From Pseudomonas cichorii (lineage in GTDB: Bacteria > Pseudomonadota > Gammaproteobacteria > Pseudomonadales > Pseudomonadaceae), in contig NZ_CP074349.1 in the NCBI RefSeq assembly GCF_018343775.1, forward strand, positions 2,470,001-2,534,000: 64,000 nucleotides of DNA, in the 5' to 3' direction. Both the position numbers and the translations under genes were made by a program. The notes below the pieces were generated by a model, which was not told where the DNA came from, did no database searches, and saw nothing but the letters and a program-made list of their open reading frames with translations. Positions 1,041-18,471 of the stretch are shown in pieces. The stretch's first letter is position 1. The number at the start of each line of letters is the position of its first letter.

Positions 1041-1793
1041 TCAGCGTCCTATTCGGGGTTCTTTGATGGCAATCGGAGCAATGATGTCGCGGACCTTGGC
1101 GTCATCGTCCTGCTTGGATTTCAGGTATTCCAGCGCCACAGCGGCAGCGTTGCGCACGTGATCGACGGAAGCCTTGTGGGCCGCCAGCGGGTCGCCGCTC
1201 TTGATGGCTTCGACGATGTGTTCCATTTCCTTGCTGCTGGCACCGCGGCGGTTGATCTGTGACACCGAGGTGGCCCGCAGGTAGCTGATGCGAGCCTGCA
1301 ACTGACGCAACTGGGTGGCGGCGATGTGATTGCCAGACCCTTCGAGCAGTACATCGTAGAAACTTTGTACCGAATCGATGACCTGTTGCAACTCGCCATC
1401 GTCGAGGGCCTTGCGGTTCTCTTCGAGGGCCTTTTCCAGGGCACGGATATCTTTCGCCTTGGCTCGCAGGGTGAAAAGCTGCACGATCAGCCCTTCGAGC
1501 ACGCAACGCAGCTCATAGATATCGCAGGCATCTTCCAGCGTGATGATCGCGACCCGCGGCCCCTTGGCGTCGGCGAACTCCACCAGACCTTCGGACTCCA
1601 GATGGCGCAAGGCTTCACGCACCGAGGTCCGGCTGACCCCGAGACGATCACACAGATCTCGCTCGACCAGACGATCACCCGGCAGAAGCTGGAAGTTCAT
1701 GATTGCGCTGCGCAGTTTGTCCAGCACGATTTCGCGCAGGGTAACGGGATTGCGATTGACCTTGAAGTTGTCGTCGAGTGGCAGGCGTTTCAT
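1041..1793 (-). CDS. GntR-family transcriptional regulator (FCD/FadR subfamily)
   Basis: The 250-residue protein has an N-terminal winged helix-turn-helix (about residues 18-80, with GDRLVERDLCDRLGVSRTSV and REALRHLESEGLV). An all-helical FCD ligand-binding domain with the ELRCVLEGL start follows. FCD regulators usually repress a neighbouring catabolic operon and release DNA on binding a carboxylate ligand. The probable operator, TGGTATACCA, occurs twice, at 52-61 and 5448-5457, and brackets this gene and its presumed targets. No copy of the palindrome is visible before gntR itself. The start is an ATG with a weak ribosome-binding site. The ligand is unknown. Confidence 0.92.
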   Translation of the reverse strand: MKRLPLDDNFKVNRNPVTLREIVLDKLRSAIMNFQLLPGDRLVERDLCDRLGVSRTSVREALRHLESEGLVEFADAKGPRVAIITLEDACDIYELRCVLEGLIVQLFTLRAKAKDIRALEKALEENRKALDDGELQQVIDSVQSFYDVLLEGSGNHIAATQLRQLQARISYLRATSVSQINRRGASSKEMEHIVEAIKSGDPLAAHKASVDHVRNAAAVALEYLKSKQDDDAKVRDIIAPIAIKEPRIGR

Positions 1794-1964
1794 CGGGTGT
1801 GCTCGGAGTGGGGCTGTCTATGTGAAAAACACGGCCAGAACAAGGCGGTCGCGTTCATGGCGTCAGCCTGAAAACCGGCCTGGCTGACGCATGACCGGGC
1901 CTGCATCGCCCGGATAGACGCCGAGTTTATCACGCCGTTGCTCTTGACTACCAAGAACCCCGTC

Positions 1965-2450
1965 TCATGCAAAAGGTGGCAGAGCCCCCAGTTTGCCGCG
2001 GTAGTAGAGCATCGGTGTAGCAGGTGTTTCCGGCAGGATCAGGTTTTTCACCGCGCCGACGATGATGGCGTGATCGCCGCCGTCATATTCGCGCCACAGT
2101 TCGCACTCGATGATCGCCGTCGCCTTGCTCAGCAACGGGTTGCCGAGCTCGCTCAGGTGCCATTCGATACCCTTGGTCTTGTCCTTGCCCTTGCTGGCGA
2201 ACGCATAGGCTTCAGCCTGCTGCTCGGCAGAGAGCAAATGGATCGCGAACTTTTTACTGTCGCGCAGCACAGGGTAAGTGTCGCTGGCGTAGTTCGGGCA
2301 GAACAGCACCAGTGCCGGGTCGATGGATAGCGCGCTGAAAGCGCTGGCGGTGATGCCTACCAGACCGCCTTCGGCGTCCAGTGTGGTGACGATGGTCACG
2401 CCCGAAGGAAAGGACGCCATGACTTCTTTATAAATGCCGGGTTCTATCAT
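1965..2450 (-). CDS. Flavin reductase domain protein
   Basis: This HpaC/FRP-like flavin reductase opens with FPSGVTIVTTLD and has GITASAFSALSIDPALVLFC, the FMN-binding split-barrel signature. Such proteins reduce FMN or FAD with NAD(P)H and hand it to a two-component monooxygenase. No oxygenase is in this window, so one may lie beyond the left edge. I chose the ATG at 2450, preceded by GAGGCGG. A TTG at 2468, overlapping the aldehyde dehydrogenase stop as TTGA, is an alternative that adds six residues. It is the last gene of the run that starts at 5408. Confidence 0.88.
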   Translation of the reverse strand: MIEPGIYKEVMASFPSGVTIVTTLDAEGGLVGITASAFSALSIDPALVLFCPNYASDTYPVLRDSKKFAIHLLSAEQQAEAYAFASKGKDKTKGIEWHLSELGNPLLSKATAIIECELWREYDGGDHAIIVGAVKNLILPETPATPMLYYRGKLGALPPFA

Positions 2451-2464
2451 TGCCGCCGCCTCAC

Positions 2465-3946
2465 TCAACGCATTACAAAAGGATCAGGCATGGGGGCCTG
2501 CGATAGATTGATCCATACCGTTTTCAGTTCGGTATAGGCCAGGACCGAGTCAATGCCGCTCTCACGGCCATAGCCGCTGTTCTTGAACCCGCCGATGGGG
2601 GCCATGGCAGATACGGCTCGATAGGTGTTGACCCAGATGATACCTGAACGGATGTCCCGTGCCAGACGGTGTGCGCGGCCAAGATCCCGGGTCCAGATTC
2701 CTGCTGCAAGGCCGAACTGCGAGTCGTTGGCAATCGCCAGGGCTTCGGCTTCATCCTTGAAACGGATCACCGACGCGACAGGACCGAAGACCTCTTCCTG
2801 CATGATCTTCATGGAGTTGCGGTCGCACTCGAACAGGGTCGGCTCGTAGAACCAGCCTTCGCTGGCCATTTCGGGCCGCTTGCCACCCAGTCGCAGGCGT
2901 GCGCCTTCGGCCAGTGCATCAGCCACCAGACCTTCGACCACGGCCAGTTGCTGGGCAGTGGCCATGGGGCCCATTTCAGTGGTTTCGTCCTGAGGATTGC
3001 CGATGCGGATACGGCTGGCGCGTTCGGCCAGGCGCTCGACGAATTCGTCGTAGATCTCGTCCTGGACCAGCAGTCGCGAGCCCGACACACAGCTTTGCCC
3101 CGAAGCGGCATAGATACCAGCGACCGCGCCATTGATGGCGCTGTCCAGATCGGCGTCGGCAAAGATGATGTTGGGAGATTTGCCTCCCAGTTCCAGGGAC
3201 AGCTTGGCGAAGTTTTCGGCGCTGCTGCGCACCACATGGCGCGCAGTCGCGGCGCCGCCGGTAAAGGCGATCTTGCGCACCAGCGGATGACGGGTCAGGG
3301 CGGCGCCGGTACTCGGGCCGTACCCGGTCACGACATTGACCACGCCCGGCGGAATACCGGCTTCCAGCGCCAGACGCGCCAGTTCCAGAATGGTGGCCGA
3401 GGCGTGTTCGGAAGGCTTGAGTACGATGGTGTTGCCCGCTGCCAGTGCCGGAGCCAGTTTGATGGCTGTCAGGTACAGCGGGCTGTTCCAGGGAATGATC
3501 CCGGCGACCACGCCCATGGGTTCATGGACCGTGTAGGCAAACAGATCGGGCTTGTCGAGGGGCAGGGTGCCGCCTTCGAGTTTGTCCGCAAGGCCGGCCG
3601 TGTAGTGGAAAAATTCCGGCAGATAGCTCACCTGACCACGGGTTTCGCGGATCAGCTTGCCGTTGTCGCGGCTTTCCAGTTGGGCCAGTTGTTCCTTGTT
3701 CTCGGCGATCAGGTCGCCCAGCCTGCGCAGCAGCTTGCCTCGTGCCGTGGCTGTCAGCCCGCGCCAGGATTTGTCTTCAAAGGCCTTTTGTGCGGCCTGG
3801 ACGGCGCGCTCCACGTCCGCCTCATCGGCGTCGGGCAACTGCGCCCAGGGTTCGGCCAATGCAGGGTTGAGACTGTCGAAGGTCTTGCCGGAAAGTGCGT
3901 CGACCCATTGGCCGTCTATGCACATCTGAAAGCGCGTGAGAGTCAT
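2465..3946 (-). CDS. NAD(P)-dependent aldehyde dehydrogenase
   Basis: At 493 residues it has the normal length of the ALDH superfamily. Visible motifs are the substrate-channel PWNSPL, the cofactor-site FTGGAATAR, the general-base LELGGKSPN and the catalytic cysteine in GQSCVSGSR; EEVFGPV near the C-terminus is also typical. It oxidises an aldehyde to the acid, but the substrate is not deducible. The start codon overlaps the stop of the upstream hydrolase gene by four bases (ATGA), so it is translated from the same operon message. Closest family types are betaine-aldehyde or hydroxymuconic-semialdehyde-like dehydrogenases. Confidence 0.92.
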   Translation of the reverse strand: MTLTRFQMCIDGQWVDALSGKTFDSLNPALAEPWAQLPDADEADVERAVQAAQKAFEDKSWRGLTATARGKLLRRLGDLIAENKEQLAQLESRDNGKLIRETRGQVSYLPEFFHYTAGLADKLEGGTLPLDKPDLFAYTVHEPMGVVAGIIPWNSPLYLTAIKLAPALAAGNTIVLKPSEHASATILELARLALEAGIPPGVVNVVTGYGPSTGAALTRHPLVRKIAFTGGAATARHVVRSSAENFAKLSLELGGKSPNIIFADADLDSAINGAVAGIYAASGQSCVSGSRLLVQDEIYDEFVERLAERASRIRIGNPQDETTEMGPMATAQQLAVVEGLVADALAEGARLRLGGKRPEMASEGWFYEPTLFECDRNSMKIMQEEVFGPVASVIRFKDEAEALAIANDSQFGLAAGIWTRDLGRAHRLARDIRSGIIWVNTYRAVSAMAPIGGFKNSGYGRESGIDSVLAYTELKTVWINLSQAPMPDPFVMR

Positions 3947-4776
3947 GCAACGATTCCCTTTGCCGGATTATGTAGAGCTGCCGACTTGTCGAGAAAGTCC
4001 AGCAACACCTGATTGACCAGACGCGGCGATTCCACCGGCATCATGTGCCGCTGCTCGGGCAGTATCGCAACCTCTGCACCATGGATACGCATCGCCAGTT
4101 GACGGGCCATGTCCGGTGTCGAACCGGGGTCCAGCTCGCCGGTGGCAATCAGCGTCGGTGCGCGAATATCGCCCAGATCTTCGGCGCGGTACATATCCTG
4201 TGTGGCAAACAGCTTGTAAGTGGTCAGGTAGCCCTGTGGGTCGTTGCTGGCCAGGTTCTGCCGGATGGCTGCGATCTGTGCAGGGTTGGCCGCCTGGTAT
4301 TCCCTGCTGAACCAGCGCGACAAGGCCTCTGCGGCATTGGCGTCCGGCCCGTGTTCGGCGGCCTGGCTGGTGCGTGCGATGACACCGGCACGTTGCTCGG
4401 GCGTGCGATTGAACACGCTGTTGAGGATGACCATGCCGGACAGGTGCTGCGGGAAGTGCAGGGCAAAGGCCCGCGCAACCAGCCCACCCATGGAGAAGCC
4501 GATGATCGTGGCCTGAGGCAGGCCCAGATGGTCGAGCAATTCTCGCAGTTGTTCTGCATAACCGGGCAGGCCGGTATCCGGGTCCGGGCGCGGACTCGAA
4601 CCATGACCCAGCATGTCGTAGGCAATGACTCGGTAATGCGGGGCCAGGCCGACAATCTGGCCGCCCCACATTTCTTTGTTCAGACCCACCCCGTGAATCA
4701 ACACCACAGGGTGGCCCTGGCCGGTGGCCAGATAACTGGTTCCGGCCGGGGTGCGTTCAGCGGTGAGCTGAATCAT
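3943..4776 (-). CDS. Alpha/beta hydrolase
   Basis: About 277 residues. It shows the oxyanion-loop HGVGLNKEMW, the nucleophile elbow GFSMGG, an acid-site region GELDPGS and a C-terminal QRHMMPVE carrying the catalytic histidine. This layout fits the 3-oxoadipate enol-lactonase (PcaD)-like or ring-cleavage hydrolase branch. It probably cleaves an ester, lactone or C-C bond of the operon's substrate. I chose the ATG at 4776 because CAGGAG stands six bases ahead of it; an ATG at 4797 would add seven residues with no ribosome-binding site. It is the second gene of the operon. Confidence 0.9.
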   Translation of the reverse strand: MIQLTAERTPAGTSYLATGQGHPVVLIHGVGLNKEMWGGQIVGLAPHYRVIAYDMLGHGSSPRPDPDTGLPGYAEQLRELLDHLGLPQATIIGFSMGGLVARAFALHFPQHLSGMVILNSVFNRTPEQRAGVIARTSQAAEHGPDANAAEALSRWFSREYQAANPAQIAAIRQNLASNDPQGYLTTYKLFATQDMYRAEDLGDIRAPTLIATGELDPGSTPDMARQLAMRIHGAEVAILPEQRHMMPVESPRLVNQVLLDFLDKSAALHNPAKGIVA

Positions 4777-4817
4777 GGATCGCTCCTGCGCAGGCATTCA
4801 TTATTGTTGGGAGGGGA

Positions 4818-5408
4818 TTACTGAGCCTTTTCGGCAGCCAGCTCTTCCAGGTCGATATAACGGTTGCCGATGCGCGGGTGCAGACGGCCACCGTTGGCAG
4901 CGCCCAGCACGACGATGATTTCGTCGGCGCGTGGTGCGTCTTCGATCTGCATTTCCAGGGTGATGTAGTGCGAGCGCAGGCCTTCGTCATCCTTGTGCAT
5001 CATCGGGATCTGGATGGAAGTGCCCGGGCCGCCGCGCTTGTTGGTGAAGCTCAGGTAGCTCTTGGCCTTGACCGCTTCACGGTAGTGGTTGCCGAAGCGC
5101 AGGGTGTGAATCACCGCTGAAGCGTGTTCGATCTCGCCTTCGGCGCCGACCACTGCGGCCTTGCCGTAGGCTTCGATCTTGTCTGCACCGCCGATGGCGG
5201 TCGTCAGGCGCTTGACCATCAGTTCGCCCAGCTCGGAGCAGTTTGCGCGGATTTCAGGCTTGAGGTCTTCGACAAAACCACGACCGAGCCAAGGGTTCTT
5301 GATCACGACAGCCAGGCCGACCATGGTCACCGGTTTGTCGGTCGCCTTGCCGCCTTCGATGAAGGTCTCTTCGGTGTAATTGACGATCTTGCGAATTTCA
5401 AAGCTCAT
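4818..5408 (-). CDS. Amino acid synthesis family protein (DUF1185)
   Basis: This 196-residue protein matches the DUF1185 / amino-acid-synthesis family: MSFEIRKIVNYTEETFIEGG at the start and a central KAAVVGAEGEIEHASAVIHT. The family has a structure but no settled biochemical function. It recurs with flavin monooxygenases, aldehyde dehydrogenases and hydrolases. I take the ATG at 5408, with GGAG just upstream; the longer frame to 5498 would run through the operator. It is the first gene of the operon, and its promoter region holds the TGGTATACCA palindrome 39 bp upstream of the start. Confidence 0.85.
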   Translation of the reverse strand: MSFEIRKIVNYTEETFIEGGKATDKPVTMVGLAVVIKNPWLGRGFVEDLKPEIRANCSELGELMVKRLTTAIGGADKIEAYGKAAVVGAEGEIEHASAVIHTLRFGNHYREAVKAKSYLSFTNKRGGPGTSIQIPMMHKDDEGLRSHYITLEMQIEDAPRADEIIVVLGAANGGRLHPRIGNRYIDLEELAAEKAQ

Positions 5409-5446
5409 GTAGGACTCCCGGATCGAGCACTGTTGTATTTCGTATG

Positions 5447-5462
5447 ATGGTATACCATAAGA
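5447..5462. promoter_or_regulatory. Putative GntR/FCD operator in front of the DUF1185 operon
   Basis: ATGGTATACCAT (5447-5458) is a 12-bp perfect palindrome. The 15 bases TGGTATACCATAAGA are identical to those at 52-66. T-G-G-T...A-C-C-A half sites are typical of FCD-type GntR operators. It lies 39 bp upstream of the first gene of the minus-strand operon, where a bound repressor would block the promoter. Confidence 0.7.
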
Positions 5463-5628
5463 TTGTGTGTGCAAGTGCTTTATTCGAGCGGGTTGCAAAA
5501 ACCTTCCTCGACGACCATTCGTCAGTGGTGTCCTGTGGTTCTTTGAACGTTGTCCGGCGCTGACAGGCCAGATATTTCATGGGCCATGGACGGTTTTCGT
5601 TTCCTCCAGCCCACTACAGGAGAAAGAA

Positions 5629-6486
5629 ATGACTGACTACCCAAGACCTCCTTTCCCGCAACAGGCGCAATCGGTGCCTGGTTCGCAAGCGAAGATGGAG
5701 CCCTATCCCGATTGCGGCGAGCAGAGCTACCGTGGCTCTGAGCGACTGCAAGACAGAATTGCCCTGATCACCGGCGGGGACAGCGGCATTGGCCGCGCAG
5801 TGGCCATTGCCTTTGCGCGAGAGGGTGCTGACGTCGCGCTCTCTTATCTCGATGAGCATGAGGATGCTCAGGAAACCGCTCGCTGGGTCGAGCAGGCTGG
5901 CAGGCAGTGTTTGTTGCTGCCGGGCGATCTTGCTCAGAAAGAGCAGTGCCGCCACATTGTGGAAGAAACCGTCGGGCGCTTTGGCCGTATCGATGTGCTG
6001 GTCAACAACGCAGCCTTCCAGATGACTCACGAAACCTTTGAAGAAATCCCCGATGAAGAATGGGTGAGGACCTTCGATATCAATATCACGGCGATATTCC
6101 GCATCTGTCAGGCGGCAGTGCCACACATGGCTGCAGGCAGTTCGATCATCAACACCAGTTCGGTGAACGCCGACATGCCCAAGCCGACCCTGCTGCCTTA
6201 TGCCTCCACCAAAGGCGCCATTGCCAATTTTTCCGGCGGCCTGGCGCAACTGCTGGGCGAACGTGGAATCCGGGTCAACAGTGTCGCTCCGGGCCCGATC
6301 TGGACACCCTTGATCGTGTCGACCATGACGGACGAAGAAGTCCGCAACTTCGGCAGCCAGACGCCGCTGGGGCGTCCGGGCCAGCCTGTTGAGGTGGCAC
6401 CGATTTATGTGCTGCTGGCTTCAGACCAGTCCAGCTATACCTCCGGTGCGCTCTATAGCGTGACGGGCGGCAAGCCGATTTTGTAG
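5629..6486 (+). CDS. SDR family oxidoreductase (YhdF/YdaD-like)
   Basis: A 285-residue short-chain dehydrogenase with the extended N-terminal tail (YPRPPFPQQAQ...) of the general-stress YdaD/YhdF group. It has the cofactor motif TGGDSGIGRA, the NNAA strand, the serine in NTSSVNAD, and the catalytic YASTK. It would reduce or oxidise a small carbonyl or alcohol with NAD(P)H. The ATG at 5629 follows AGGAGA with good spacing; a longer frame reaching back to 5467 overlaps the promoter region. It is transcribed divergently from the DUF1185 operon and appears monocistronic. Confidence 0.9.
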   Translation: MTDYPRPPFPQQAQSVPGSQAKMEPYPDCGEQSYRGSERLQDRIALITGGDSGIGRAVAIAFAREGADVALSYLDEHEDAQETARWVEQAGRQCLLLPGDLAQKEQCRHIVEETVGRFGRIDVLVNNAAFQMTHETFEEIPDEEWVRTFDINITAIFRICQAAVPHMAAGSSIINTSSVNADMPKPTLLPYASTKGAIANFSGGLAQLLGERGIRVNSVAPGPIWTPLIVSTMTDEEVRNFGSQTPLGRPGQPVEVAPIYVLLASDQSSYTSGALYSVTGGKPIL

Positions 6487-6577
6487 CGAACATTCTGCTT
6501 TGGCTGCACTCCCATACAGTGACGGCCTGTCGATGAGGTGCTGGCAGGTCGTTACTGTTTGCATCTGTCATTCATTC

Positions 6578-6618
6578 TTGACTGTGCCTTGACTCTTACG
6601 GGTATATCCCCGTAAGTT
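6578..6618 (+). promoter_or_regulatory. Promoter-like region with CTTACGGG-N6-CCCGTAAG dyad
   Basis: An 8-bp perfect inverted repeat (6595-6602 and 6609-6616) lies about 40 bp ahead of the next gene. A TTGACT at 6589-6594 precedes it and TAAGTT (6613-6618) follows with an 18-bp spacer, so the dyad fills the spacer as in MerR-regulated promoters. A second reading is TTGACT at 6578 with TATATC at 6603. Either way the dyad is a likely operator. No regulator gene adjoins it. Confidence 0.5.
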
Positions 6619-6656
6619 GGTCGACTCAGTCATGCATCAACTTCAGGAGAAATGCC

Positions 6657-8087
6657 ATGTATCCCGATGTTCAGCTCTATATCGATGGCCAATGGCGTGC
6701 AAGCCGCGATGGCCGCACCTTGTCGGTCATCGATCCTGCCACCGGCCAGTCGCTGGGAACGGTGGCCCATGCCAGCATTCCCGATCTGGACGAAGCCCTG
6801 GCGGCAGCTGAACGTGGTTTTGCAACCTGGCGCGCCACTTCGGCCTATGATCGCTACAAGATCATGCAAAAGGCTGCGCAATTGCTGCGCGAGCGCGCCG
6901 ACAGCATTGCCCGCATCATGACTCAGGAACAGGGCAAGCCGCTGGCCGAAGCGCGTATGGAAACCCAGTCCGCTGCCGATATCATCGACTGGCTGGCCGA
7001 GGAGGGGCGTCGCAGCTATGGCCGTCTCGTGCCGTCGCGCAATCCTTCCATCGAGCAGAAGGTGATCAAGGAGCCGGTCGGTCCCGTTGCCGCGTTCACG
7101 CCCTGGAACTTCCCGATCAACCAGGTGGTGCGCAAGCTGTCGTCGGCACTGGCCGCCGGTTGCTCGATCATCATCAAGGCCCCGGAAGAAACTCCGGCAT
7201 CGCCTGCTGAACTGGTCCGTGCCTTTGCCGATGCCGGTGTGCCGGCTGGCGTGATTGGGCTGGTATACGGCGTGCCTGCCGAGATCTCCAATTACCTGAT
7301 CCCGCATCCGGTGATCCGCAAAGTGACCTTCACCGGCTCCACTCCAGTAGGCAAGCAACTGGCGGCCTTGGCTGGCCAGCACATGAAGCGCGCCACCATG
7401 GAGCTGGGCGGCCATGCGCCTGCACTGGTCTTCGACGACGCCGATCTGGATCTGGCTGCGCGAGTGCTGTCCACCGCCAAGTTCCGCAATGCCGGTCAGG
7501 TCTGTGTTTCACCGACGCGGATTCTGGTACAGCGCAAGGTATTCGAGGCTTTCACCGAGAAATTCGTGGGGCTGACCCGGGAAGTCAAGGTTGGCAATGG
7601 CCTGGAAGCGGGCACGACCATGGGGCCGGTGGCCAATGAACGCCGCATTCCGGCGCTGACGGATCTGATCGAAGATGCAGTGGGTGCCGGTGCGAAGCTG
7701 GAAACGGGCGGCAAGGCCGTTGAAGGGGCAGGCTATTTCTTCGAGCCAACCGTATTGAGCGGTCTGACCCGTGAAATGCGCATCATGAACGAAGAGCCTT
7801 TCGGTCCTGTTGCGTTGTTGGTGCCGTTCGACACGCTGGAAGAGGTTATCGCCGAGTCCAACCGTGTGCCGTTTGGTCTGGCGTCCTATGCCTTCACCAC
7901 TTCGATGAAGACTGCCCAGGCGCTGAGCAATGGTATCGAGGCAGGTATGCTGTCGATCAACCATCAGGGTATTGGCCTGCCTGAGATTCCGTTTGGCGGG
8001 ATCAAGGACTCAGGCTACGGCTCCGAAGGCGGCACCGAAGCCATCGAGGCCTACCTCAATACCAAGCTCGTGACGCAGTTCAACTAA
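6657..8087 (+). CDS. gabD: NAD(P)-dependent succinate-semialdehyde-type dehydrogenase
   Basis: A 476-residue ALDH-superfamily enzyme of the GabD/SSADH branch. Visible are TPWNFP, the cofactor strand FTGSTPVG, the general base in MELGGHAP and the catalytic cysteine in [18 protein letters not shown] and the C-terminal [10 protein letters not shown] are also present. The expected reaction is oxidation of succinate semialdehyde or a related short semialdehyde. The ATG follows CAGGAG. A dyad-bearing promoter is immediately upstream and a REP hairpin immediately downstream, so it is probably monocistronic. The gabD symbol is by family resemblance; it is not next to gabT, so the substrate could be another semialdehyde. 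Confidence 0.85.
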
Positions 8088-15768: not shown

Positions 15769-17052
15769 TCAAAAGCCCAGTCTGTCGCGCAGGCTGTAAT
15801 ACCAGGCGCCCAGTGCTGTAAGCGGCGTGCGCAGCAACTGGCCGCCAGGGAATGGGTAGTGGGGCAGGTCGGCGAATGCATCGAAACGCTCGGCCTGGCC
15901 ACGCAAGGCTTCGCAAAGCACCTTGCCTGCCAGATGGGTATAGGTCACGCCATGCCCGCTGCAACCCTGAGAGTAATAGATGTTGTCGCCCAGGCGCCCG
16001 ACCTGCGGAAGTCGTGACAGGGTCAGCAGGAAATTGCCGGTCCAGGCGTAATCGATCTTCACATCCTTGAGTTGCGGGAAGGCCTTGAGCATCTTGGGAC
16101 GAATGATGGCTTCGATATTGGCCGGGTCGCGGGCGCCATAGACCACGCCACCACCAAAGATCAGGCGCTTGTCGGCGCTGAGGCGGTAGTAGTCCAGCAG
16201 GTAATTACAGTCCTCGACGCAGTAATCCTGAGGCAGCAGGGATTTGGCCAGCTCTTCGGTCAGCGGTTCGGTGGTGATCACCTGAGTGCCGCATGGCATC
16301 GACTTGGCCGCCAGTTCCGGCACCAGATTGCCCAGATAGGCATTGCCGGCCACGATGATGAATCTGGCCCGGACTTTCCCTTGTGCCGTATGCACGACCG
16401 GGTTGGCGCCACGTTCGATACGGATCGCCGCCGATTGTTCATGGATGACACCGCCCAGCGATTCCACGGCAGTCGCTTCGCCCAGCGCCAGGTTCAGTGG
16501 ATGGATATGGCCGCCGGTCATGTCCAGCATGCCGCCGATATATTGCTCGCAGGCAACGACTTCGCGGATGCGGTTTTTATCCATCAGCTCCAGATGCGAA
16601 TGCCCATAGCGTTCCCACAAACGCTTCTGAGCTTCCAGATGCGCCATCTGCTTGTTGGTCAGGGCTGCGAATACGCCGCCGTCCTTCAGGTCGCATTGAA
16701 TACCGTAACGGGAAACACGATCTCGAATGATCGCCGCGCCCTCGAATGCCATCTGCCCCAGCAGTTGCGCCTGTTTGGGGCCTACGCTGCGCTCGATGAC
16801 ATCGATATCGCGGCTATAGCTGTTGACGATCTGCCCGCCGTTACGGCCCGAGGCGCCAAAGCCGACCTTCGCGGCCTCCAGCACGGTGACTCTGAAGCCA
16901 TGCTCAAGCAGGAAGAGGGCGCTGGACAACCCTGTATAGCCTGCGCCGATGACGCATACGTCCGTCTCCACTTCACCCTGCAAGGCAGGACGTTCCGGGA
17001 CCGGATTGGCTGATGCGGCGTAGTAGGACTGCGGATAGAGCGTGTTCGCCAT
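15769..17052 (-). CDS. puuB: FAD-dependent amine oxidase, gamma-glutamylputrescine oxidase type
   Basis: A 427-residue DAO-fold flavoenzyme. The N-terminal dinucleotide motif VCVIGAGYTGLSSALFLLEHG begins near residue 33. GFGASGRNGGQ, the FAD-contact segment of PuuB/OrdL oxidases, and the C-terminal CSGHGVTYTHLAGKVL follow. The expected activity is oxidation of gamma-glutamylputrescine or a similar amine in polyamine breakdown, releasing ammonia and peroxide. Polyamine-route partner genes are not in the window, so the exact substrate is inferred. It appears monocistronic, transcribed toward the hairpin at 15732. Confidence 0.82.
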   Translation of the reverse strand: MANTLYPQSYYAASANPVPERPALQGEVETDVCVIGAGYTGLSSALFLLEHGFRVTVLEAAKVGFGASGRNGGQIVNSYSRDIDVIERSVGPKQAQLLGQMAFEGAAIIRDRVSRYGIQCDLKDGGVFAALTNKQMAHLEAQKRLWERYGHSHLELMDKNRIREVVACEQYIGGMLDMTGGHIHPLNLALGEATAVESLGGVIHEQSAAIRIERGANPVVHTAQGKVRARFIIVAGNAYLGNLVPELAAKSMPCGTQVITTEPLTEELAKSLLPQDYCVEDCNYLLDYYRLSADKRLIFGGGVVYGARDPANIEAIIRPKMLKAFPQLKDVKIDYAWTGNFLLTLSRLPQVGRLGDNIYYSQGCSGHGVTYTHLAGKVLCEALRGQAERFDAFADLPHYPFPGGQLLRTPLTALGAWYYSLRDRLGF

Positions 17053-17193
17053 CCTGAAGCTCCGTTTAAAATTCTTGACGAGTGCCGTGATCCTACCCCA
17101 GTTAAAAAACCTCTGCCAGCCACGGGATAAAACATATTTACCTGCGCAGCACCTAAAAGCGTTGCGAATTCATAGGCTTAGCTGAAAAAGAGA

Positions 17194-17221
17194 TTGACAG
17201 GCCAGCCAATGTCCGTAGAAT
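17194..17221 (+). promoter_or_regulatory. Sigma-70 promoter of the first tRNA-Val gene
   Basis: TTGACA (17194-17199) and TAGAAT (17216-17221) are separated by 16 bp and lie just ahead of the mature tRNA 5' end at 17235. Confidence 0.8.
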
Positions 17222-17234
17222 GCGCACCCACAGC

Positions 17235-17311
17235 AGGCACGTAGCTCAGTTGGTTAGAGCACCACCTTGACATGGTGGGGGTCGTTGGTTCGAGTCCAAT
17301 CGCGCCTACCA
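17235..17311 (+). tRNA. tRNA-Val (GAC), copy 1
   Basis: 77 nt folding as a standard cloverleaf: acceptor AGGCACG / CGCGCCT, anticodon loop TTGACAT with anticodon GAC (valine), T-loop TTCGAGT, and encoded 3' ACCA. The acceptor stem has an A-C mismatch at pair 5-68, shared by both copies. It has its own promoter and terminator. Identical in sequence to the copy at 17948-18024. Confidence 0.97.
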
Positions 17312-17339
17312 GACAAATCCGCTCTGCTGGGCGGTGAAG

Positions 17340-17369
17340 AAGGGCGATCCGAAAGGGTCGCCCTTTTTT
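17340..17369 (+). terminator. Terminator of tRNA-Val copy 1
   Basis: GGGCGATCC / GGGTCGCCC with a GAAA tetraloop, followed by six T residues. Confidence 0.92.
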
Positions 17370-17429
17370 CGTTCGACCGTGAAGTGCATGATGCCGGTTG
17401 TCTATGGGTATTGCGCCAGAGCTTTATGT

Positions 17430-17651
17430 CTAGAGTCGGATTACAACATATATGGTGCTCTCCTTCTGAATGTTGTAATCGCTCAGGCTTCTCTGATCTT
17501 CAAGCTGTTTCCCGGCAAAGATAAGCCTCTGTGCTTCGGGGGAAATGCCAGATTTATCCTGAATCTTGCATTTCACGTTACTGATCGTATCTGAGGGTTC
17601 AACATCCAGTTCCCAGAGTTCTCCGGTCAATTTCTTTGCATAAATAATCAT
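17430..17651 (-). CDS. Ubiquitin-like protein lacking the C-terminal RGG
   Basis: A 73-residue protein that aligns without gaps to residues 1-73 of eukaryotic ubiquitin. By hand I count about 52 identities, including the runs [19 protein letters not shown] and [11 protein letters not shown]. The Ile44 patch residues L8, I44 and V70 are kept; position 68 is Tyr instead of His. Lysines 6, 27, 29, 33, 48 and 63 are kept and Lys11 is Glu. A TAG stop follows Leu73, so the R-G-G tail needed for E1 activation and conjugation is missing; the bases after the stop do not encode it. The ATG at 17651 follows AGGTGA; an ATG at 17675 would add eight residues without a ribosome-binding site. GC is about 43% by hand count, below the neighbours. 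No signal peptide. It lies between two tRNA-Val copies with no E1, E2, JAB or secretion gene nearby. It could be a eukaryote-derived decoy or binding protein. Confidence 0.9.
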
Positions 17652-17924
17652 TTCGTCACCTGGCGTGAATGGCATAGGAGACGCGAACAGGAGTGCCTTG
17701 AACGTGTTCGTGCAGATAGCTACATTCGCTTGCGCGCGTGCGTACAGATTAAAAGTGGGGGGGAATGACGGGAACTGACAGAACTGTCAGCGCCGTGCGC
17801 TTTCAGACAGTTGGCTTGATGCCCTTGCCGGAGCTTGCGTCTGATGGCATGTACTGAATTCAGAGCTAAAAATTTGAATATATCAGTGGGTTACTGCAAA
17901 AATCCGTTGACACCTTTTTCAATA
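17652..17924. other. Low-GC intergenic region upstream of the ubiquitin-like gene
   Basis: 273 bp with no supportable gene. It holds the 16-bp palindrome CTGACAGAACTGTCAG at 17775-17790 and a related CAGACAGTT shortly after. AT-rich DNA lies near 17865-17905. No HrpL-type box (GGAACC...CCAC) is visible on the strand that would drive the ubiquitin-like gene, and no strong sigma-70 promoter stands out. Confidence 0.5.
17775..17790. repeat. Palindrome upstream of the ubiquitin-like gene
   Basis: CTGACAG-AA-CTGTCAG is a perfect 7-bp inverted repeat with a 2-nt centre, 124 bp upstream of the ubiquitin-like start. It could be an operator or a site-specific recombination core; nothing in the sequence decides between them. 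Confidence 0.4.
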
Positions 17925-17934
17925 TCCGTAGAAT
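17907..17934 (+). promoter_or_regulatory. Sigma-70 promoter of the second tRNA-Val gene
   Basis: TTGACA (17907-17912), 16-bp spacer, TAGAAT (17929-17934). The layout is the same as for copy 1, although the sequence left of the repeat differs. Confidence 0.8.
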
Positions 17935-17947
17935 GCGCTCCCACAGC

Positions 17948-18024
17948 AGGCACGTAGCTCAGTTGGTTAGAGCACCACCTTGACATGGTGGGGGTCGTTG
18001 GTTCGAGTCCAATCGCGCCTACCA
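17948..18024 (+). tRNA. tRNA-Val (GAC), copy 2
   Basis: Identical over all 77 nt to copy 1, with anticodon GAC, encoded CCA and the same A-C mismatch at acceptor pair 5-68. Confidence 0.97.
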
Positions 18025-18053
18025 AACAAAATCCGCTCTGCTGGGCGGTGAAG

Positions 18054-18083
18054 AAGGGCGATCCGAAAGGGTCGCCCTTTTTT
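18054..18083 (+). terminator. Terminator of tRNA-Val copy 2
   Basis: Same GGGCGATCC / GGGTCGCCC stem with GAAA loop and T6 tail as copy 1. Confidence 0.92.
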
Positions 18084-18108
18084 CGTTTGCGCAGATTGAA
18101 ACCCGACC

Positions 18109-18471
18109 CTATTTGGGCCGGGCAAACGATTTGACGATGGATTTGGTCGCTGTGCTTGCCTTGAGGTCGCTGATGTTTCCAGTCGCGAGCCATTTGCAGG
18201 CGGCAATCTCGTTCCGTGGCGAGGGCTCGCTGGAGGAGGGGATCACGGCTGTGAATATGTGGTGAATGACCCGATCCTTTTCGTATTCATCCACATACAT
18301 GAGGTCCAGGTTTTCAAGGCCCGTTTCCTCACTCAGTTCGCGCACGGCTGCCTGGGCTGGCGTTTCTCCCGCTTCGATCCTGCCGCCGGGCAATGCCCAT
18401 TTCGATTTTGGTTTGCGAACGTAGAGGATCTGGTCGTCACGCTTGCAGATGACTGTTGCTCGTTCTTTCAT
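18109..18471 (-). CDS. Nudix hydrolase
   Basis: 120 residues, a minimal Nudix domain. The box is complete: GGRIEAGE then seven residues and RELSEETGL, at about residues 29-52. The start ATVICKRDDQILYVRKPKSK is typical of MutT-like or ADP-ribose-type small Nudix enzymes. The substrate is unknown. The ATG follows AGGTGG. Its stop lies 22 bp beyond the second tRNA-Val repeat on the opposite strand, so the tRNA terminator also separates the two units. Confidence 0.9.
   Translation of the reverse strand: MKERATVICKRDDQILYVRKPKSKWALPGGRIEAGETPAQAAVRELSEETGLENLDLMYVDEYEKDRVIHHIFTAVIPSSSEPSPRNEIAACKWLATGNISDLKASTATKSIVKSFARPK

Follow-up and report, generated by a model that had tools for sequence, protein, structure and literature searches.

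The locus described here raises the question what use a bacterium may have for a close copy of ubiquitin that lacks the C-terminal tail. It lies in a stretch of 64,000 nucleotides of the genome of Pseudomonas cichorii (NZ_CP074349.1, positions 2,470,001 to 2,534,000), referred to below as the window. Bub and BilABCD are bacterial ubiquitin-like conjugation systems. BilABCD is described as a four-gene operon with E1, E2 and JAB proteins (PMC11354881). In the literature searched, just one eukaryote-like ubiquitin of a bacterium was found whose function has been studied, BfUbb (ubb) of Bacteroides fragilis, a eukaryote-type protein reported to show 63% identity to human ubiquitin (PMC3352274). 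It occurs in some strains only, in a species that according to these reports has no ubiquitin pathway of its own (PMC3352274; PMC5705921). BfUbb was found to inhibit ubiquitination in vitro and to form a covalent complex with E1, ascribed by the authors to its terminal cysteine (PMC3352274), and to antagonise other B. fragilis strains (PMC5705921). Secretion of a ubiquitin with a signal sequence and a 12-residue C-terminal extension is reported for the plant-parasitic nematode Globodera rostochiensis (PMC5705921); this again is ubiquitin in a plant parasite, but it is a eukaryote's own gene product, with signal and extension. A paper on a Pseudomonas ubiquitin gene was not found in the open-licence literature, a scope outside which most subscription journals fall. 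Relatives of the window gene are annotated as 'ubiquitin-like protein' or 'Ubiquitin' in public records, yet are undescribed as far as seen.

Identity and fold of the protein

The + strand of 17430-17651 is an interrupted frame, and the - strand, which the initial annotation had not specified, encodes a ubiquitin of 73 residues. The product is 71% identical to human ubiquitin over 73 columns without a gap (1ubq row, Foldseek), which is the likeness originally estimated by hand, and 53 of 73 residues are identical to those of a eukaryotic unit carrying D16 (P0057). The Pfam ubiquitin profile (PF00240) matches with E = 1.3e-23 and 82.9 bits, against a cut-off of 25.4. The structure prediction that had been suggested gave an AF2 model with a mean pLDDT of 96, which Foldseek superimposed on solved ubiquitins with an rmsd of 0.4-1.1 A (in the 50 rows listed). 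Profile score and predicted fold thus both place the protein in the ubiquitin family. Leu8, Ile44 and Val70 as well as lysines 6, 27, 29, 33, 48 and 63 are kept, in agreement with the first reading, and Lys11 is replaced by Glu. The only cysteine is C28.

Likeness to eukaryotic ubiquitin therefore extends to fold, sequence, the L8/I44/V70 residues and Lys48. The difference lies in the C-terminus, VVIRL, where a stop after Leu73 takes the place of R74-G75-G76, and in the lack of conjugation genes beside the gene. With the C-terminal Gly-Gly lost and the fold kept, the protein is not conjugatable. A sequencing or assembly error hiding a conjugatable ubiquitin, which the initial annotation had named as something that would change its reading, has a negligible probability: the stop after residue 73 recurs in six genomes (the window genome G000, MAFF 302096, G018, G384, G126 and G339), and three different stop codons are used (TAG, TGA or TAA across G018, G384, G126 and G339). 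The gene of the separately sequenced P. cichorii MAFF 302096 is identical in 222 of 222 bases. Tail-less relatives are 81% (G018) and 58% (P. cannabina) identical to the window protein.

BfUbb, which had been put forward as the nearest precedent, is likewise a eukaryote-type bacterial ubiquitin without terminal glycines, and the comparison holds to that extent. However, BfUbb is a secreted protein with a signal sequence and a cysteine at its C-terminus, whereas the window protein starts at Met1 and ends at Leu73. No signal peptide was seen by eye in the window protein, which begins at ubiquitin Met1 and has MPFTPGDE as its sole possible extension. Both uses of BfUbb, inhibition of ubiquitination and antagonism between strains, would be possible for the window protein by analogy.

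Gene and genomic context

The features of the locus are listed in Table 1. A start at the ATG at 17651 fits the position of the Shine-Dalgarno-like AGGTGA. The upstream ATG would make a product of 81 amino acids, and the eight additional residues are the same in G018. Database lengths are 73 amino acids for the protein of a P. cichorii relative (P0099) and 81 for the window's own product (P0014). The gene has a low G+C content (0.43) and is the single PF00240 match at E <= 0.001 in the window genome (one contig, 5.98 Mb). The dyad TGACAGAACTGTCA is operator-like in form and may have such a role. The -10-like element TGATATATT is also present in G018 and absent from G384 and G126. A consensus promoter scan gave no candidate on the - strand.

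Table 1 Features at the ubiquitin locus (positions in the window)
Feature	Position	Strand	Remarks
Recombination tract	16000..18471		bins 99.2-100% identical to MAFF 302096; flanking bins 86-95%
Direct repeat, first copy (tRNA-Val and surroundings)	17207..17373	+	called as two abutting families
tRNA-Val(GAC), first copy	17235..17311	+	one flank of the spacer
Tail-less ubiquitin gene	17430..17651	-	73 codons and TAG stop
Possible 8-residue N-terminal extension MPFTPGDE	17652..17675	-	in-frame ATG at 17675; also contains the ribosome-binding site
AGGTGA, Shine-Dalgarno-like	17656..17661	-	4 bases ahead of ATG 17651; identical bases in G018
Dyad TGACAGAACTGTCA, perfect, 14 bp	17776..17789		upstream of the ubiquitin gene; one mismatch in G018; none seen in G384
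Extended -10-like TGATATATT	17877..17885	-	234 bases ahead of the start codon; weak promoter candidate
Direct repeat, second copy	17920..18087	+	97-100% identical
tRNA-Val(GAC), second copy	17948..18024	+	other flank of the spacer

The ubiquitin gene lies antisense to two tandem tRNA-Val(GAC) genes, between the copies of a repeat of ~167 bp. The same place and orientation between tRNA-Val genes were found in the window genome, MAFF 302096 (L021), G018 and G384; the G384 protein is identical to P0152, named P. cannabina. No second gene is evident between the two tRNAs, where just ORFs overlapping the ubiquitin gene are seen. Ten neighbouring ORFs were scanned with Pfam and proved to be of ordinary kinds, giving DUF480, DUF1993, LysR, TerC, DAO oxidoreductase, NUDIX, alcohol dehydrogenase and GGDEF-EAL matches and two ORFs without a family. 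Genes for E1, E2 or JAB conjugation proteins were not among these ten, as had been observed from the start. The window protein has the ubiquitin fold in a bacterium in common with BilABCD and Bub, but its gene stands alone. In the whole genome two ThiF-family matches and one Prok-JAB match were found, at 1.1-1.7 Mb from the ubiquitin gene. Because both the tail and neighbouring conjugation genes are missing, conjugation by the bacterium itself appears very unlikely.

The tRNA-Val site was compared in ten stretches of nine other Pseudomonas genomes, picked from 57 searched. The same FAD-oxidoreductase neighbour was present in 9 of the 10 stretches. Two tRNA-Val copies were present in 6 stretches and one in the remaining 4; start-to-start spacing was 236-253 bp in three genomes (G006, G007, G015), about 1.2 kb in two (G009, G020) and 13 kb in G025. 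The spacer was nearly empty or held other DNA. These differing contents and spacings indicate that the tRNA-Val spacer is a variable site. In MAFF 302096, an insert of ~6.2 kb (L021, about 1421-7564) lies next to the ubiquitin spacer, beside the second tRNA-Val. The insert encodes a phage-type integrase (PF00589, 6e-23) and contains part of a third copy of the repeat. Near-identity to MAFF 302096 over the tract in Table 1 indicates that the ubiquitin gene and its surroundings were recently exchanged between close species. No such high-identity tract was found against G018, with bins of 84-99% identity within 16000-18471.

Distribution in Pseudomonas and other sources

Related genes in other Pseudomonas, for which the initial annotation had proposed to look, were found by genus-wide and protein searches. 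A search of 398 Pseudomonas genomes with the PF00240 profile gave 20 matches, 17 of which scored above the Pfam cut-off; the three below it (G053, G100, G328) are GGDEF-like by reading. Seven of the 17 are tail-less, have no internal stop and are 73 residues long if read from the Met that corresponds to ubiquitin Met1: those of the six genomes named above, of which MAFF 302096 is taken to be G370, and the distant G085. For G339 (frame open upstream, 319 codons) and G085 (116) these starts are assumed. Two stand-alone copies have glycines, ending in RLRGG (G245; L032 9821-10051) and RLKGGL (G228; L029 9880-10113). Two copies are decayed (G033, G016), and in two others the ubiquitin domain lies inside another protein (G105, G029). 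In the remaining four, ubiquitin follows a leader and is continued by a long C-terminal part (G187, G166, G325, G092; L002, L004, L005, L006). The C-terminal part of G187, the sole one of the four scanned, matches an autotransporter barrel in Pfam, and for this reason the ubiquitin of such fusions may be displayed on the cell surface. These fusions have the genus and a eukaryote-type ubiquitin domain in common with the window protein, but differ in their leader and C-terminal part, and Ile44 and/or Val70 is altered in each of the four. The diverged tail-less ubiquitin of G339 (L031 8698-11209) is flanked by an IS3-type transposase on one side and, on the other, by a portal gene that matches just the later part of a Mu-type profile (PF06074), apparently in a broken prophage.

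Further draws of 199 and 368 Pseudomonas genomes gave only already-known carriers. Outside the genus, 1 of 368 genomes of a class-wide draw had a match above the PF00240 cut-off, in a frame of 344 codons. Protein searches, for which the best 120 of about 8,000 scored were listed, gave two more members: P0170, named 'Ubiquitin [P. syringae pv. helianthi]', and P0181, named 'ubiquitin-like protein [P. syringae group]' and recorded on 15 contigs. The P. syringae-group members are therefore at least those found.

Ubiquitins occur in other bacteria and on viral contigs as well. Among plasmids, 3 of 72,556 records had a ubiquitin match, none of them Pseudomonas. Plasmid pRUMAL01 of Ruminococcus albus 7 (L083 2923-3663) encodes a 'ubiquitin family protein' with a leader, a ubiquitin identical to a eukaryotic unit in 66 of 73 residues and a further part. 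Coriobacteriia and Proteobacteria MAGs (L022, L023) similarly encode a leader, ubiquitin and a C-terminal part. Fifteen ubiquitin loci were found on viral contigs, and in the nine that were read (L084-L092) some ubiquitins have a tail and some are fused or diverged. L084 (4808-5137) encodes a complete ubiquitin, RGG included, behind a leader. A viral contig of 132 kb carries a stand-alone ubiquitin ending in LRLR, without Gly-Gly (L089 5001-5225), so that tail-less forms are not confined to bacteria. Since the ubiquitins of viral contigs vary and include this tail-less stand-alone form, a viral source of the window gene is possible. A phage origin was considered as well, but none of 50,697 phage records was matched by tblastn. 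The three proteins submitted to PADLOC gave no match to a defence system. The lambda tail assembly protein I, treated in a Pseudomonas prophage paper (PMC4936722), is a different ubiquitin-fold protein and not the window protein.

Descent and selection

In the final tree the window protein groups with P0099, P0152, P0170 and P0181 in one clade with a support of 98/93, from a bootstrap that had not fully settled. The clade consists of a cichorii-type half (100/98) and a syringae-type half (98/94). Four members end at L73 and P0181 ends in LGIGPL; a terminal Gly-Gly is present in 0 of 5. In earlier trees, made before P0170 and P0181 were known, the locus group had a support of just 89/72 and 76/72. 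For trees and counts P0170 was cut to its last 73 residues and P0181 to its first 73. All trees were made without L023, which is included in the conservation counts, later trees without G399, V084, V088 and V089, and the final tree without G018, a near-copy of P0099.

The rows of the tree group with eukaryotic and viral ubiquitins. The tree holds no classical bacterial beta-grasp proteins, and it is by identity and profile scores that the window protein is taken to be a eukaryote-type ubiquitin, as proposed initially. A length of 73 residues is too short to point to a donor lineage. The word 'recent' in the original proposal of a capture is not supported: the protein belongs to a five-member clade, and in the comparison of the window gene with the P. 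cannabina copy synonymous sites have reached saturation, although both have kept length and frame. The recent event, judged from sequence identity, is just the local recombination tract common with MAFF 302096. A single origin of all Pseudomonas tail-less forms was neither shown nor rejected, with a p-AU of 0.42 (six rows) and 0.55 (five rows), and of 0.44 and 0.28 with the final tree; G126 and G339 may have arisen separately or may be clade members on long branches.

Between the window and G018 genes, 10.3 synonymous and 16.7 non-synonymous changes were counted, giving a dN/dS of 0.38 (Fisher p 0.039 or 0.0098, by rounding). In a neutral simulation (20,000 runs) 2.3% of the runs gave as few amino-acid changes (P 0.023), so that in this one pair the pattern appears to depart, modestly, from the neutral one expected of a pseudogene. 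The neighbouring genes have a dN/dS of 0.02-0.09 in the same comparison. Constraint on the ubiquitin gene is therefore weak, and the gene evolves fast for its place. This excess over the neighbours, the low G+C content and the decayed copies in G033 and G016 are what would be expected of a relic, which after capture and loss of the tail would drift without function, its frame kept open by chance and recombination. Such an outcome is nevertheless improbable, as the one pair that could be measured has an omega below 1, the changes are spread unevenly along the protein (see below), and the gene is intact, gap-free and of equal length across saturated synonymous divergence. The last argument counts only given one bacterial ancestor, which the 98/93 clade suggests.

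Conservation of the 41-62 face

The changes are strongly concentrated outside residues 41-62. At 31 positions all five clade members have the residue of eukaryotic ubiquitin, namely at 18 of 22 in 41-62, a segment chosen post hoc that includes structural residues, and at 13 of 51 elsewhere. Counted as cells, of which those from related rows are not independent, 7 of 110 are changed in 41-62 (6%) versus 112 of 255 elsewhere (44%). Tail-less G126, which is not placed in the clade, showed 1/22 versus 19/51 changes (p 0.004). No bias was found in the four autotransporter-type fusions (16/88 in 41-62 versus 34/204 elsewhere, p 0.74), nor in stand-alone G339, G228 and G245 (19/66 versus 56/153, p 0.28). 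Five other secreted or fused ubiquitins showed the same direction more weakly (15/110 versus 61/255, pooled p 0.035, with no single row under 0.15), and all 12 control rows pooled gave p 0.07. Segment 41-62, with Ile44, Lys48 and surroundings, is the face normally touched by ubiquitin-binding domains and ubiquitin enzymes. Of the patches of ubiquitin, with positions as we take them to be, Ile44 is invariant in the clade at 6/9 positions (P 0.11, not significantly enriched), Phe4 at 0/6, the TEK box at 0/5 and Ile36 at 1/4.

The Lys48 acceptor face, which we take to comprise positions 44, 47-49, 51, 52, 54 and 58-60 and to be what K48-chain enzymes see, was chosen after the fact and is kept at 10/10 positions in the five clade members and in G126. 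Each of K6, K11, K29, K33 and K63 is absent from one or more clade members; K27 and K48 are kept. With Lys48 and the acceptor face kept, other lysines except K27 variably lost and the donor tail gone, the protein might be read as an 'acceptor-only' ubiquitin, which would accept host ubiquitin on Lys48 and never be passed on, a soluble sink draining or capping chains. This is quite improbable, since the Lys48 face is not unique to tail-less forms: secreted L088 has 10/10 and five other bacterial forms 9/10. The weaker bias in other secreted forms and the kept face of L088 also mean that some of the effect may be a general property of ubiquitin. Tail-less G339 has lost the face (4/10), which counts against the mimic reading proposed below.

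Proposed role

The reading favoured here, with a probability that we would put somewhat short of even, is that the captured tail-less ubiquitin acts as a non-covalent mimic via the 41-62 face. A mimic of the Ile44/Lys48 face is preferred because it fits fold, tail loss and conservation together; the non-covalent role suggested at first is in this respect strengthened by the conserved face, and a eukaryotic target and secretion would still have to be assumed. The capture of a eukaryote-type ubiquitin gene would date back to an ancestor of the P. syringae/P. cichorii group; wherever the locus could be read, the gene sits in the spacer of two tandem tRNA-Val genes. Loss of the flexible Gly-Gly tail with retention of the fold would have precluded conjugation. 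The 41-62 face would then bind partners as a competitive mimic, leaving the remaining surface to drift. We infer that the gene is expressed and its product bound by partners, most likely ubiquitin-binding proteins of a eukaryote met by these bacteria (plant, amoeba). To reach a host target, the protein would have to leave the cell by lysis or by a route that needs no leader.

P. cichorii, P. cannabina and P. syringae pv. helianthi are plant pathogens. These are the named carriers of the gene, which would suit a type III effector injected into plant cells. This route is decidedly improbable: the best HrpL-box scores in four upstream regions equalled those of shuffles, and the three one-mismatch matches in the window include none at the ubiquitin gene. 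Nor does the N-terminus fit the effector pattern, as residue 11 is acidic and the first 50 residues include 4 Ser.

An antibacterial role like that of BfUbb, with the eukaryotic-type face reused, would require no eukaryotic host; the protein might be released against competing bacteria or act on a bacterial partner inside the producer. Strain-specific fitness genes are commonly found in variable spacers, and the ubiquitin gene stands alone in one. BfUbb, also without a terminal glycine, is reported to antagonise other strains of its species (PMC5705921). However, BfUbb has a signal peptide where none is seen by eye in the window protein, and a new bacterial target would not be expected to require strict retention of 41-62. 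The lack of an evident second gene between the tRNAs also speaks against this role, although the authors of the BfUbb study state that they too saw no immunity protein (PMC5705921). We regard this role as unlikely, though the most serious competitor of the non-covalent mimic of a eukaryotic partner.

The length of 73 residues makes the question directly testable with purified protein and a gene deletion. If the mimic reading is true, a second, tail-less and plant-associated Pseudomonas lineage with a conserved face would mean that ubiquitin has been made a non-covalent bacterial tool more than once.
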